From contig JAJZEQ010000123.1 of assembly GCA_021851345.1 (NCBI GenBank), positions 1-39,461 of the forward strand: a stretch of DNA of 39,461 bases, given 5' to 3'. How positions within the stretch are numbered: the stretch's first letter is position 1; the number at the start of each line of letters is the position of its first letter. The position numbers and the translations under genes were made by a program. The notes below the pieces were generated by a model. The model worked only from the letters and a program-made list of their open reading frames with translations, made no database searches and was not told where the DNA came from. Shown here in pieces: positions 24,919 to 34,617 of this stretch. This stretch comes from Pseudomonadota bacterium (GTDB taxonomy: Bacteria > Pseudomonadota > Gammaproteobacteria > Burkholderiales > Gallionellaceae).

Positions 24919-24995
24919 GGTGATATAGCTCAGGTGGTTAGAGCGCAGCACTCATAACGCTGAGGTCGGTGGTTCAAATCCACCTATCACCACCA
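24919..24995 (+). tRNA. tRNA-Met (CAT anticodon; Ile2/CAT not excluded)
   Basis: Cloverleaf GGTGATA TA GCTC AGGTGGTTA GAGC G CAGCA CTCATAA CGCTG AGGTC GGTGG TTCAAAT CCACC TATCACC ACCA; CCA encoded. Confidence 0.93.
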
Positions 24996-25039
24996 AGACA
25001 CAGTTTCAGTCAGTCTCAAACAGTCTCGAAACCTACCCC

Positions 25040-25587: not shown

Positions 25588-25615
25588 TTGACAATGTAAC
25601 TCATGGGGTTACAAT
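25588..25615 (+). promoter_or_regulatory. candidate higBA promoter with palindromic operator
   Basis: TTGACA-16 nt-TACAAT; TGTAAC tcatggg GTTACA inverted repeat between and overlapping the boxes. Confidence 0.6.
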
Positions 25616-25620
25616 TCGCC

Positions 25621-25899
25621 ATGATTAAGAGTTTCAAACACAAAGGGCTTGAGCGGCTGTTTATTAAGGGCAGTGCCAGCGGTGTGCAGGCGGATTATGC
25701 GCCCCGCATTACCTTGATACTCGATGCAATGGACGCGGCGGAACAGGTGAAAGAATTGGACTTGCCCGGCTTGCGCCTGCACCGTCTGAAAGGCGATAAG
25801 CGCAACCTGTGGAGCGTGAGAGTGTCAGCCAATTGGCGCATCACGTTTGAATTTGAAAATGGCGATGCTTACATTCTGGACTTGGAGGATTATCACTGA
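25621..25899 (+). CDS. higB: type II toxin HigB (RelE/ParE superfamily)
   Basis: MIKSFKHKGLERLFIKGSASGVQADYAPRI...LPGLRLHRLKGDKRNLWSVRVSANWRITFEFENGDAYILDLEDYH. Confidence 0.92.
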   Translation: MIKSFKHKGLERLFIKGSASGVQADYAPRITLILDAMDAAEQVKELDLPGLRLHRLKGDKRNLWSVRVSANWRITFEFENGDAYILDLEDYH

Positions 25900-26201
25900 T
25901 GGATACTTTACGAAACAAAAAACGCGCACCCACTCATCCCGGCGCATTGCTGCGCGAAGTGGTGCTGCCTGAGCTGGGGATCACGCAAGGCGAGTTTGCC
26001 GACCGGCTGGGCGTATCGCGCCGCACCGTGTCTGAGGTACTGCACGAACACCGCCCGGTTACGCCAGACATGGCGATCCGCTTGGGCAAGCTGCTGGGCA
26101 ATGGTGCGGGGCTGTGGTTGCGAATGCAACAAGCGGTGGACGTGTGGACGCTGGAGCAGCAAGGCGACTACGCACACATCCAGCAACTCAAGGCCGCTTA
26201 G
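25899..26201 (+). CDS. higA: antitoxin HigA (HTH/XRE family)
   Basis: HPGALLREVVLPELGITQGEFADRLGVSRRTVSEVLHEHRPVTPDMAIRLGKLLGNG; overlaps higB stop (TGATG). Confidence 0.93.
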   Translation: MDTLRNKKRAPTHPGALLREVVLPELGITQGEFADRLGVSRRTVSEVLHEHRPVTPDMAIRLGKLLGNGAGLWLRMQQAVDVWTLEQQGDYAHIQQLKAA

Positions 26202-26430: not shown

Positions 26431-28158
26431 TCACTCTCTTTCAGTCAATATCTTTTTCGCCTCTCGGAGGTCAATTTTGGCGTGATATCCGTGTTTTTGA
26501 AGAAGGTGCAAAAGATTTGAGCCGTTGAGTAAAGTTATGGGTTTCCCTTTTGCAAATTCATAGGCATCCGGGCCGTAATCGGCGGTTGTAACCAATATTC
26601 CCTTCGTAGCGCCCTCATTCATGGTTGTGCCGTATAAATCACGGACAGCAGAAACTCCAACTGTATTTGTATATCGCTTTGCTTGAATTACAATCTTTCC
26701 ACCGCGTATGGGATCAGGATCAAATGCCACCGCATCTACACCGCCGTCTCTACTTGCTTGAGTAATCTTGACTTCGCCACCATTGACTTGAAATTCTTTT
26801 TCAAAAATCTCACGAATTAGGTGCTCAAAATCTTCCCAGCCCATCGCAGCAAGATTTGTTGAGGTATCGATTGAACAGGCCACTTCGTACCCATCAACAA
26901 ACCGCTTGTCTACTTTGCTTATCTGCATAATCGGCTGCACAGGCGTTATTGAGCTCAGCTTACTGCTTGCCACCCCTTTGAGGTTCTTGAAACATACTTT
27001 AGGATCAACATTGGCAAGATCGATTTCGATAAACTCAATTTTCTTGACTTGAATACTGAGGATGCAATTATTTTCCTCTTTCCCTGTCGCTTTGTTGATG
27101 GCTTTTACCCAACCGTTAAGAGAGACAGCATCAATTGCATCTGCAGCATCAGCCTCAAACAGTTCGTGGATAGTTCGGAGTGCTATTTTGTAGATTGCCT
27201 CGTCAAACATCTTGGCCTGTTGACTCTCTGAAATTAGTGATTCTTTTAATTCCTTCCGCGTGGAGATGTACTTTACTTCCTTCACGGATGGAAAATCAGC
27301 AAGCGAGGGAAGCTGATATTCCACAATAAGGATCTTTGTGTCTGGAATATACTCAATCTCAAAGCTCACAGGAAAACTTACAGGGTAATCAGAGTTATTT
27401 AGTACCATGTCGCAATACTCTACGATGGAATCCTCATTTTTCGCCAGATAGTTTGATCTCATTGAATCAATTTTTTGATTGAACTTCTCCCGCTCTTCCA
27501 GAAAGACATTTTTGTTCTGTTCCCAGACCAACACGCTTTTTTTCCAATCGTGAAACTGCCCATCATATTCTTGCGCCTGCTGGCTATTTTTCTTGTCTAC
27601 CTCTCGCTTTTCGATCTCCCACTCTAGGATTCGGGCTTGGAAACGTTCTTCGCAGACTCCTATTTTTCTTTCCTTCTTTGACTTGATCAGTTTCTCAAAA
27701 AAGGTGAAAGTAATCTCCGCTCTCGTGGGTTCTGCTGGATACCCTAGATTTTTCTTGGCCTTTGGCTCTGTAGGAACTATTTCCGGAAAGCCATCAACTC
27801 TCTTAAGTTTTTCCCAATCAATTATGTCGTCGATCGTAAGGGTATGGATCAGCAAATTATCGATGGCCGCAAGAGCGCTCATGGCCTCCTGCGAGAGTAA
27901 AAGGGCTTTCTCAATACTTGCTTCTTTCAACTCGCTATTTTTTCGCTTCTCTTCAATCGATTCCCAAATCTCAGACCATTTTTGCGCCTGTAAATTTACC
28001 TTGTTTTGAAGTATGCCGACATCAGGTGCTGAGATTATTTTGTGGTCGTTTAAGCCGTTGTGGGACATTTCGATGGAGTATTTCAGTATTCTGGTTCCAG
28101 ACACGTTCCAATACGCCTGAGCCTTTCCCACTTGTAGTAGGTCACTTGCCATTTTCAA
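26431..28158 (-). CDS. Mrr-like restriction endonuclease-domain protein with coiled-coil N-terminal region
   Basis: C-terminal WEDFEHLIREIFEKEFQVNGGEVKITQASRDGGVDAVAFDPDPIRGGKIVIQAKRYTNTVG...GILVTTADYGPDAYEFA (D...QxK core). Confidence 0.85.
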   Translation of the reverse strand: MKMASDLLQVGKAQAYWNVSGTRILKYSIEMSHNGLNDHKIISAPDVGILQNKVNLQAQKWSEIWESIEEKRKNSELKEASIEKALLLSQEAMSALAAIDNLLIHTLTIDDIIDWEKLKRVDGFPEIVPTEPKAKKNLGYPAEPTRAEITFTFFEKLIKSKKERKIGVCEERFQARILEWEIEKREVDKKNSQQAQEYDGQFHDWKKSVLVWEQNKNVFLEEREKFNQKIDSMRSNYLAKNEDSIVEYCDMVLNNSDYPVSFPVSFEIEYIPDTKILIVEYQLPSLADFPSVKEVKYISTRKELKESLISESQQAKMFDEAIYKIALRTIHELFEADAADAIDAVSLNGWVKAINKATGKEENNCILSIQVKKIEFIEIDLANVDPKVCFKNLKGVASSKLSSITPVQPIMQISKVDKRFVDGYEVACSIDTSTNLAAMGWEDFEHLIREIFEKEFQVNGGEVKITQASRDGGVDAVAFDPDPIRGGKIVIQAKRYTNTVGVSAVRDLYGTTMNEGATKGILVTTADYGPDAYEFAKGKPITLLNGSNLLHLLQKHGYHAKIDLREAKKILTERE

Positions 28159-28410
28159 CTCCGCAAGAACAAAAATTAAGCAGGTAATTTAACACCAAAC
28201 TCCCCTACTAGCCACAAGGAACAATATATAGGCCCTTTGCGCGACCGTATGGGTGGGCATTGGGGGCACTCTTGAATTTCCGCTTCGCAGCTAGTGTGCG
28301 TTCATCATCGAGAACTGTCGGCCGTAAAGCTGCCCCCGGCAAAAAAATTCACCGGCTGAAAGCTGACCGACATGGAATGGCGCTGCTGACACATTGCAGA
28401 TAGCTGCCCT

Positions 28411-29409
28411 TCACAAGATGAATGGTGATTTGGAAGCACAATAGACATGGCGATAGCTTTGATAGATCACGTTTCGGTTAAATCCTCCCAGTAGTTCCAT
28501 GTTGTCCACACAATAATGGAGTTGAATGGAGCGTGGCAGTTTCTTGCGTTCGTTCTTAAGATGTTCAAGATACTCGGGTGGAGTGTTCGGTGGTGCTACC
28601 GCATCAATGTCGGCGAAGAGGTAACGAATGAAAGCATGCGAAGACAAGTTGAAGTCGAAGCCATCCATTCCAGATCGTCTGATGTTAGTGCTGAATGAAC
28701 GGTCTGACAATAAACAACGTGCTTCAGTATAAAGACTTATGAGTACGGTGATTTCTTGCTCAAAGTTAATAAAACTGCCTTTCACGATGCTTTCCAACAT
28801 ATTTAATTCGCCGTCTCCGGAAGGGATGAATAGCATGAACAACATTCGCAGCCATTTTTCGTATTCCGCATCAGTAATCCCGAGTTCCTGACAGAGACGC
28901 GCTTGATGAGGCTTTCGTCCATTCAGGATTCGTTCAAACGTCATTTGGTGCTCTGAGGTCGCGGGCACATAGTTTGTTAAGACCCCAAACGTGTTGAGCA
29001 CCTTATGTATGGAAAAAGGGTTGCGAGTGTAATTGAGGAGCTTCGCAATGAAGAGGTTGACGATCTCATCATTCACGTTCATATCCTTCTGTCCTGCGGT
29101 GAGTTTGTGAATCAGACTTTCCGTTTGTGTTTTAATGCTGCTCTCGTAGAAATTAAAAGCATCCTCAAAGTTGCTCCGAATATTGGTATTTTTATCAACA
29201 TCAAAGCTAAACAAGTCGTGATATGCGAGAGCATTAGAAATGGGCTGCCCTTTATGGTTTAATAACCGGAGTTTAAGCGCTTCACGATTGATAATCTTAA
29301 AGAGGTATATCCTTTGCTTTTTGATAGATGCTTGAGGATTGATGGCGTTGAAACGCTGTTCTACCTGCGGGATAAAATGTTGCCGATACGTTTCATTTTG
29401 CCACTTCAT
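28411..29409 (-). CDS. uncharacterised protein, possibly DUF4238-like
   Basis: MKWQNETYRQHFIPQVEQRFN...IYLFKIINRE...; 332 aa ORF in AT-rich island, same strand as the Mrr-like gene. Confidence 0.6.
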   Translation of the reverse strand: MKWQNETYRQHFIPQVEQRFNAINPQASIKKQRIYLFKIINREALKLRLLNHKGQPISNALAYHDLFSFDVDKNTNIRSNFEDAFNFYESSIKTQTESLIHKLTAGQKDMNVNDEIVNLFIAKLLNYTRNPFSIHKVLNTFGVLTNYVPATSEHQMTFERILNGRKPHQARLCQELGITDAEYEKWLRMLFMLFIPSGDGELNMLESIVKGSFINFEQEITVLISLYTEARCLLSDRSFSTNIRRSGMDGFDFNLSSHAFIRYLFADIDAVAPPNTPPEYLEHLKNERKKLPRSIQLHYCVDNMELLGGFNRNVIYQSYRHVYCASKSPFIL

Positions 29410-29604: not shown

Positions 29605-29844
29605 GTGCCAATCTGCCGATCAGGACGGCCTTTTCAGGTTGTTCAGTCTATAGAACTACATGAGTGTCAAACCGTTGAAAAATTGTCCGGCCTAAGCAGG
29701 GCAACAATCTACCGCTTAATAAAAGCAGGAAAATTTCCACGCCCATTATCCATCGGTACGGGCTCGGTACGCTGGCGGCAATCGGACGTGATTGCCTGGC
29801 AACAGTCCCTTGCCGCTACGGCTGAACAAAGAAAACCACCCTGA
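29605..29844 (+). CDS. AlpA family (P4-type) transcriptional regulator; start uncertain
   Basis: TVEKLSGLSRATIYRLIKAGKFPRPLSIGTGSVRWRQSDVIAWQQS. Confidence 0.85.
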   Translation: MPICRSGRPFQVVQSIELHECQTVEKLSGLSRATIYRLIKAGKFPRPLSIGTGSVRWRQSDVIAWQQSLAATAEQRKPP

Positions 29845-30048
29845 CAGAGGCGAGGTGAACTTGCTATAATGCTGCGCGGACAGAAGAAGCTTTTCGCGCA
29901 GGCTTGGCAAGCAATAATGTTTCGTTGGTATATCTGTTGGTACATATAAAATCTGTATTGCATAGAATGCCAATTGCACGACTTGCATGGCAAGATTCAA
30001 TAGAACCTATCCCAAGACCCAATCTAAAGAAGTCCAAAGAAGTCCACG

Positions 30049-30729: not shown

Positions 30730-31160
30730 TATTGAGATTTCCATAATTCATGACACACTTTCCGTCATTGCGAACGGAGTGAAGCAATCCAGCAAGACTA
30801 AAGATGCATTTTGTTTAAACCACCTGGATTGCCACGTCGGTTTCACCTCCTCGCAATGACGACATGTTCTGGATTGCCGCGCCGGCTACGCCTCCTGATG
30901 GAACTACTGGTGAAACGACTAGCTATCCCACTAAGCAACCAGAAGACGGTTGCCAAGTGGTTGGTTATAGCCAATCGACTAAGCCAGCAAGCTGGCAAGT
31001 CGCTGGTTATCGCAATGACGACGTGTTCTGGATTTCCGCTTGTCCGAAGGACAGTTTTATCCTGAGACCATCGAAGGACGGGAATGACGTGCCAGTTTTT
31101 TATTTTCCATGCCCTGTTACGAACGATGCCGTGCTGTCTTCAATTATGGAAAATTAAATA
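30730..31160. repeat. TIR-bounded MITE-like element, copy B
   Basis: TATTGAGATTTCCATAATTCATGACAC ... CTGTCTTCAATTATGGAAAATTAAATA; interior shares ATGCATTTTGTTTAAACCACCTGGATTGCCACGTCGG with copy C. Confidence 0.7.
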
Positions 31161-32983: not shown

Positions 32984-33282
32984 TTGTGTCAGGTGAATTT
33001 TACCAGCTGCAGGTATTGGGCACCCAAGCTCATATCAGCCGGCCATCAATTTCAGATCGGACTGCATCATACTGCCAACCCAACAAATAACTGTATAATA
33101 ACGCCTATAGCAGACTTAGCAGTAAGCACGGCTCCAAGTGGCTATCAATTGGGGGTGCATATGGGGGTGTCAATGAAATATGAGACGTTAGAAATTAGCA
33201 CTAGCAAGTTGTAGCTGATCATTCAATTGCACCTATCCCAAACAATTCGCTCCAATGTGGTTACATTGCGATCCAGAGTACC

Positions 33283-34617
33283 GTGCCAGGAAAATTCCAC
33301 ATAAAAACCTTCGGTTGCCAAATGAACGAGTATGACTCGGAGAAAATGGCGGATTTGCTGCGCGCCTGGGGGGGGATGGAACAGACCGGCGATCCGGCGG
33401 AAGCTGATGTCATCCTGTTCAATACCTGCTCAATTCGCGAGAAAGCCGAAGAAAAAGTGTTCTCCGACCTGGGGCGGGTGCGCCCCCTGAAACTGGCCAA
33501 CCCGGATCTGCTGATCGCCGTGGGCGGTTGCGTGGCCAGCCAGGAAGGCGCGGCAATCCTGAAGCGCGCGCCCTATGTCGATGTGGTGTTCGGCCCGCAG
33601 ACGCTGCACCGGTTGCCGCAGTTGCTGGAGGCGCGCCGCGCCACCGGACGCGCGCAAGTGGATATCAGTTTTCCCGAAATCGAAAAGTTCGATCACCTGC
33701 CCGCGCCCACCACAGTCTCCAGTTCTGCCTACGTGTCCATCATGGAAGGCTGCAGCAAATACTGCACATTCTGCGTCGTGCCCTACACGCGAGGCGAAGA
33801 AGTTTCGCGGCCCCAGGCCGACGTGATGCGTGATGTGCGGGAACTGGTTGGGCAAGGGGTGAAAGAAGTGACCCTGCTCGGGCAGAATGTGAATGCCTAC
33901 CGGGGCATCAGCGACGACGGCGACACGGTGGATTTCGCGTTTTTATTGCAGGCCATCGCCGCACTGGACGGAATTGCGCGCATCCGCTATACCACCTCGC
34001 ATCCCAGGGACATGGCGCAGCGGCTGATTGATGTATATGCGACCACGCCCAAGCTGGTCAGCCATTTGCATCTGCCGGTGCAGTCCGGTTCGGACCGCAT
34101 CCTGGCCGCGATGAAACGCGGCCACACGGTGCTGGAATACAAATCCATCATTCGCCGGGTGCGCGCGGCACGCCCCGGTATCTGCATCACCTCGGATTTC
34201 ATCGTCGGATTTCCCGGCGAGACGGAGCAGGATTTCGAGGCGACCATGAAGCTGATCGACGAGATAGGCTTCGATAACAGCTTCAGCTATTTGTACAGCC
34301 CGCGCCCCGGCACGCCCGCCGCCGAACTACGCGATGACACTCCCCACGAAGTGAAGGCCGGGCGTTTGAAGCGCCTGCAGGATCGCATCGCCGAACAGGA
34401 GGATGCGGTGGCCCGCTCGATGCTGAACACGACCCAGCGAGCGCTGGTCGAGGGCATGTCAAAAAAGGACGCGTCCGAGCTGGCAGCGCGCACCGACAAC
34501 AATCGTGTCGTGAACTTCAGCGGCCCCCCCGGCATGATAGGCAAGTTCGTCGAAGTGAAGATCACGCAGGTGGTGCGCCATACCTTGCGCGGCGAACTGG
34601 TTGCAAGCGCGGGATGA
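33283..34617 (+). CDS. miaB: tRNA-2-methylthio-N6-dimethylallyladenosine synthase MiaB
   Basis: [19 protein letters not shown], radical [24 protein letters not shown]-like C-terminus; GTG start. Confidence 0.96.

Follow-up and report, generated by a model that had tools for sequence, protein, structure and literature searches.

The catalytic domain of Mrr-type nucleases carries the motif (D/E)..(D/E/Q)xK, which has been reviewed (PMC3874153). EcoKMrr of Escherichia coli has, in addition, an N-terminal Mrr_N winged helix (PMC3874153), and the 5mC-dependent endonucleases AspBHI and MspJI likewise have an Mrr-cat nuclease (PMC3874153). LlaGI harbors Mrr-type motifs, yet methylated DNA is not its target (PMC3874153), so that an Mrr_cat domain alone does not prove modification dependence. 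In PADLOC, single-chain Mrr_cat nucleases of type IV are represented by mREase_IV. A different kind of single-gene defense is known from P2-like phages, in which the gpA-gpQ interval, ending at the portal gene gpQ, is a defense hotspot (Rousset et al., PMC9122126). One DUF4238 gene at this position conferred strong resistance to T7 in E. coli, acting alone (PMC9122126).

Here, we analyzed two neighboring genes, encoding an Mrr-type nuclease and a 332-aa protein, within a 39,461-nucleotide stretch of DNA from a member of the Gallionellaceae (hereafter, the window). A first-pass annotation had proposed that they form a two-gene defense module. In our reading, they are probably two independent single-gene anti-phage cargoes of a decayed tRNA-Met island and not a two-component system.

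Genomic context of the two genes

The first-pass annotation had described two AT-rich minus-strand genes inside a tRNA island, between higBA and an AlpA regulator. Our analysis agrees with this description, since the ORFs, the tRNA-Met, the HigBA pair and the AlpA-type regulator were all identified (Table 1). Over the whole island, between the tRNA-Met and a miaB-like ORF at 33283, the GC content drops from ~0.60 to 0.42-0.52, and over 27-30 kb of the window profile it is 0.42-0.46, compared to ~0.60 on both flanks. Both genes are real and, with 42-46% GC versus ~60% nearby, foreign, and their frames are full length and stop-free. HigBA is a neighbor and belongs to neither of the two genes. 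Farther along the island, past AlpA, ORFs for a cold-shock protein and for a protein with a Ysc84 domain were found. The element's own integrase has decayed, with a 3' fragment remaining, and a plasmid search returned no near match to the island DNA.

Three att-like copies were observed: one in the 3' region of the tRNA-Met (window 24969-25000; TTCAAATCCACCTATC...CCAAGAC), a degenerate one 3' of alpA (window 29994-30020; TTCAATAGAACCTATCCCAAGAC) and one ahead of miaB (window 33221-33241; ATTCAATTGCACCTATCCCAA), the last two being identical at 19/21 positions. This arrangement suggests two tandem elements, the first of which would contain both candidate defense genes. Short repeats of the dispersed type (TCGCAATGACGACATGTTCTGGATTGCCGC and variants) were seen at window 30824-31039, where the island has no large genes.

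The two genes are separated by a 252-bp gap, without tight coupling, and a consensus scan detected promoters and terminators not in excess of chance. Thus, there is no sign of an operon.

Table 1. Features of the tRNA-Met island in the window (positions and strand).
Feature	Position	Strand	Evidence
tRNA-Met, island start	24919..24995	+	Rfam RF00005
Tyrosine integrase, 3' fragment, 81 aa	25206..25451	+	Pfam Phage_integrase, E=3.9e-8 over positions 95-168 of 172
HigBA-type toxin-antitoxin pair	25603..26201	+	Pfam HigB-like_toxin E=2.9e-20, HTH_3 E=6.8e-9
Mrr-type nuclease ORF	26431..28158 from TTG (575 aa); 26431..28152 from ATG (573 aa)	-	ORF list
C-terminal catalytic domain of the nuclease, PD-(D/E)XK type (Mrr_cat), residues 437-553	26500..26850	-	Pfam, homologue alignment
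Non-catalytic part of the nuclease, presumed DNA-sensing	26959..28137	-	AlphaFold2 model; no Mrr_N in Pfam
332-aa protein ORF, from ATG	28411..29409	-	ORF list
AlpA-type regulator of mobile element, neighbor	29605..29844	+	Pfam Phage_AlpA E=6.8e-13

The Mrr-type nuclease

The nuclease had been annotated with 575 aa. An ORF of this length, starting from a TTG at 28158, does exist, but an in-frame ATG at 28152 is located 6 nt after a GGAG (5'-GGAGTTGAAAATG-3'). Because of this GGAG, we prefer the ATG, which is probably the true start and gives a protein of 573 aa.

Pfam detected Mrr_cat (residues 437-553, E=1.5e-31, 109.3 bits versus a cut-off of 21) and NA-iREase1, and nothing else, confirming the C-terminal Mrr-type nuclease domain of the first-pass annotation; no NCBIfam model matched. 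Furthermore, the PADLOC model mREase_IV (PDLC03663) matched residues 167-556 (E=6.4e-62). Residues E445, D475, Q492 and K494 were invariant in an alignment of 26 sequences, and the set E445, D475, Q492-x-K494 fits the Mrr-cat motif. The match to NA-iREase1, which Pfam describes as "inactive," was not read as a sign of inactivity and was set aside, since the nuclease keeps its catalytic residues.

In the AlphaFold2 model (mean pLDDT 89.0, pTM 0.58), residues 8-44 form a small beta element at the N terminus, followed by long helices or coiled coil (residues 47-100 and 159-238), a central alpha/beta domain (residues ~242-400) and the C-terminal nuclease domain. The long coiled-coil N-terminal region that had been expected is thus borne out as a prediction. 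Neither the Pfam search nor the model revealed an Mrr_N winged helix. The nuclease therefore shares with EcoKMrr the C-terminal Mrr_cat domain and its (D/E)..QxK motif but, unlike EcoKMrr, has the beta element, coiled coil and central alpha/beta domain in place of Mrr_N. The best solved-structure matches found by Foldseek were AspBHI and MspJI (E about 1e-7 to 4e-5), with TM-scores of 0.16-0.17, indicating that the common part is the nuclease domain at most. Their recognition domain is not common to the nuclease, in which no SRA-like domain was found. By its sequence, the protein is a member of the PADLOC type IV mREase family, with a coiled coil replacing Mrr_N: like mREase_IV, it combines the match over most of its length with complete catalytic residues and a single gene. 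It is type IV-like and probably modification dependent. As a separate observation, DUF4236-annotated proteins in a ter-type gene cluster of a Klebsiella plasmid (L050:3755-4978) match the non-catalytic part of the nuclease at 20% over residues 87-417.

Homologues with 44-56% identity to the nuclease were found in proviruses and plasmids, and IMG/VR viral contigs contained homologues with up to 56%. In a sample of 399 genomes across the phylum, 11 carried a homologue, the nuclease's own genome being among the 11. An S24 protein (LexA/CI-like) was present within 4 kb at 10 of the 41 dereplicated nuclease loci and an integrase at 4 of them, in a set that is skewed towards viral contigs. At the level of gene neighborhoods, this shows that the gene often travels in prophages, as cargo of the immunity region. 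On plasmids of Agrobacterium and Xanthomonas, it is found 3' of a large helicase gene of the AAA or DEAD/DEAH type, and a few relatives may act within larger systems. With such a gene ahead of some plasmid relatives, the nuclease has no one general partner.

The absence of an adjacent methyltransferase, already remarked in the first-pass annotation, holds for all annotated ORFs of the island. We also searched the genome itself (86.5% complete) for three methylase families. No C5-cytosine methylase was found at this completeness, and the matches to N6_Mtase (three, strong and type I-like) and to N6/N4 methylases (two) were all located on other contigs. This host would thus be expected to tolerate an m5C-directed nuclease. 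The same genome also harbors a type I R-M locus (G000:C113, L205:416-7078) in which a gene of 395 aa, with a stretch similar to Mrr_cat, separates an HsdR-like gene from the HsdM gene.

The 332-aa protein

Single-sequence searches of Pfam, PADLOC and NCBIfam assigned nothing to the 332-aa protein. Its match to DUF4238 (PF14022) in Pfam had an E=0.029 and 14.2 bits versus a cut-off of 27, and other members of the family were likewise under this cut-off. The PADLOC model PDLC03000 (DUF4238-Pers) matched 0/45 family members, whereas true DUF4238 proteins do match it, and neither PADLOC nor PHROGs gave the family a function. We rejected the Pfam matches to DNMK and contractile tape measure, which were below cut-off and absent from the scanned homologues, as well as matches to PDC-M54B and JetD, which were weak and seen in one member each.

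The first-pass annotation had called the protein possibly DUF4238-like. Despite the Pfam E value, this hint proved correct. Comparing the profile of the 332-aa family to that of 19 DUF4238 proteins gave an E=6.5e-6 over 261 columns, and exchanging query and template gave an E=5.6e-5, over 107 columns only. The score of 49.0 compares to a maximum of 20.5 in 100 column-shuffled controls, and it was still 39.2 when restricted to the reduced column set of the shuffles; a reversed profile scored 15.3 and unrelated Mrr profiles 22.3 at most. With 11% identity and an hhalign probability of 66-85%, the relation is, as far as profiles can tell, a remote one. Residues H11, E82, E89, R129, D236 and N311 of the 332-aa protein correspond to H9, E65, E72, R106, D202 and N264 of DUF4238 and are conserved at 93-100% in the 332-aa family, so that the polar set H, E(x6)E, R, (S)D, N occurs in the same order in both. 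Five of these residues are aligned, while the second glutamate is matched by the equal E(x6)E spacing only, since the hhalign alignment has 4 gap columns between the glutamates.

The AlphaFold2 model of the 332-aa protein, which is of very high confidence (pLDDT 94.5, pTM 0.91), matched no solved structure in the PDB at E<=1e-3 (Foldseek), and against PDB sequences the family profile yielded chance matches only. The only significant fold match, obtained from a viral model library, was V9IQH5 (298 aa, E=4e-6) of the P2-like Stenotrophomonas phage Smp131, with modest TM-scores of 0.36-0.39. V9IQH5 is presumably encoded by Smp_43, a gene of equal length in the phage record, whose product is just above the Pfam DUF4238 cut-off (27.5 versus 27 bits) and reaches E=3.4e-13 against our own DUF4238 profile. 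The profile-profile and fold evidence both indicate the DUF4238 superfamily, though the family is below every library cut-off. From the profiles and models, the 332-aa protein is best read as a divergent relative of DUF4238 in an uncatalogued family. It shares with DUF4238 the co-linear profile match, the order of the six polar residues and a related predicted fold, but it remains under the Pfam and PADLOC cut-offs and belongs to a distinct family that has invariants of its own (N80, N130-P131, W186 and N254). Some DUF4238 proteins (L119, L142, L145 and L148) reach 750-810 aa; they have a SEC-C motif at around residue 360-390 and an extra C-terminal region without a clear Pfam domain.

The family occurs in Pseudomonadota and a few other phyla, in prophages and plasmids. 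Plasmid homologues were 27-50% identical. The single 332-aa sequence found none in genome contigs, but the profile search recovered 44 genome contigs (best, 68%) and 19 viral contigs (IMG/VR); similarly, tblastn found no homologue in phage records, although IMG/VR had some. One family gene is a single-gene insertion between the baseplate and tail-completion genes of a P2-like prophage of Pseudomonas luteola, others lie amid phage genes in Proteus and Acinetobacter, and on two IMG/VR contigs a member adjoins portal and terminase genes. The portal-side and P2-prophage homologues are consistent with the gpA-gpQ hotspot, and like the anti-T7 DUF4238 system of P2-like phages, they consist of one gene.

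Several immediate neighbors of the family match OLD, GajA, AriA or methylase models. No conserved partner was found, however, as no neighbor family was present in >3/52 dereplicated loci; the commonest (3/52 at most) were an IS21-like transposase, a Dam-like methylase, portal and terminase. The window gene's nearest relative (L051) adjoins a gene with a NERD domain and a PIN-like gene of the DUF5615 type, not Mrr. At two Rhizobiales loci (L042:4825-6954 and L055:6652-8984), a true DUF4238 gene is located directly upstream of a 332-aa family member, with a gap of ~190-310 bp; these pairs are two related families in tandem. In a Proteus prophage (L040:4231-6963), the gene ahead of the family member is toxin-like, with a RES domain and, at the N terminus, a HEPN/RES domain.

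Co-occurrence of the two families

Using profiles of both families on plasmids, proviruses and genomes, we found 72 loci with the 332-aa family and 53 with the nuclease outside the window. Both families were present at 0/72 and 0/53 of these loci (0/52 and 0/41 after dereplication), with flanks of mostly 6-8 kb searched for the partner, shorter at contig ends and for loci from the genome search. Additionally, a genome-level search showed the 332-aa family to be absent from nine other nuclease-bearing genomes. Relatives of each gene were thus found without the other, at differing prophage and plasmid positions. The first-pass annotation had named co-occurrence in other islands as one of the checks on its central claim, and this check failed: for lack of co-occurrence at either the locus or the genome level, a two-gene module is not supported.

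Discussion

The genes are adjacent, on one strand, and both AT-rich and defense-like, which makes it tempting to see a true module in which the 332-aa protein senses for, or licenses, the Mrr nuclease. However, with the partner missing from every dereplicated locus outside the window and from the nine genomes, and with a gap that shows no tight coupling, we rejected this idea and regard it as highly improbable. The truncated integrase and the lack of any remaining helicase or other partner could instead indicate debris, with both genes being inactive passengers of a dead element, but frames that are intact throughout and still encode the catalytic and invariant family residues make this very hard to believe.

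A reading that deserves more weight, while still being unlikely, accepts the nuclease as a genuine type IV defense and sees in the 332-aa gene a phage or plasmid moron, serving lysogenic conversion, anti-plasmid activity or the exclusion of related elements. Many family members do reside in prophages and plasmids, and the anti-phage role of a family to which PADLOC and PHROGs give no function is a predicted one. Against this speak the remote homology to DUF4238, which includes a T7-blocking member, the residues common to both, the family members at the P2 defense hotspot and the immediate neighbors resembling OLD, GajA, AriA or methylases.

We thus favor two independent cargoes, a view of both genes as defense cargo that the sequence evidence supports. 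The nuclease would work as a single chain that requires neither a methyltransferase nor an NTPase: foreign DNA, probably base-modified, would be sensed by the coiled-coil and central domains and cut by the C-terminal PD-(D/E)XK domain. We consider it likely that incoming foreign-modified DNA is its substrate and that these regions are the sensor. The 332-aa protein would act alone, by analogy with the anti-T7 DUF4238 gene, and use its conserved H, E(x6)E, R, D and N against phage or host components during infection. This analogy makes an anti-phage role likely as well, and it is somewhat probable that the protein is an enzyme operating through these six residues. Either protein may abort the infection or block the phage directly.

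With the tempting two-gene reading corrected, the nuclease belongs to a known type of enzyme, probably one that cuts modified DNA, and the remaining interest is the uncatalogued DUF4238-like family. Current catalogues miss it, as the window protein has no assignment in Pfam, NCBIfam, PADLOC or PHROGs, while its relatives occur at a P2-phage hotspot of validated single-gene defense and have the same polar residues. Uniting this family with DUF4238 provides a direct handle on a defense family, with six residues recurring across two barely alignable families. Whether the 332-aa family represents an unrecognized, widespread family of single-protein anti-phage enzymes, with a fold without solved match and an active site common to DUF4238, is in our view evenly balanced. 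If it does, a mechanism found for the 332-aa family would explain DUF4238 defense too.
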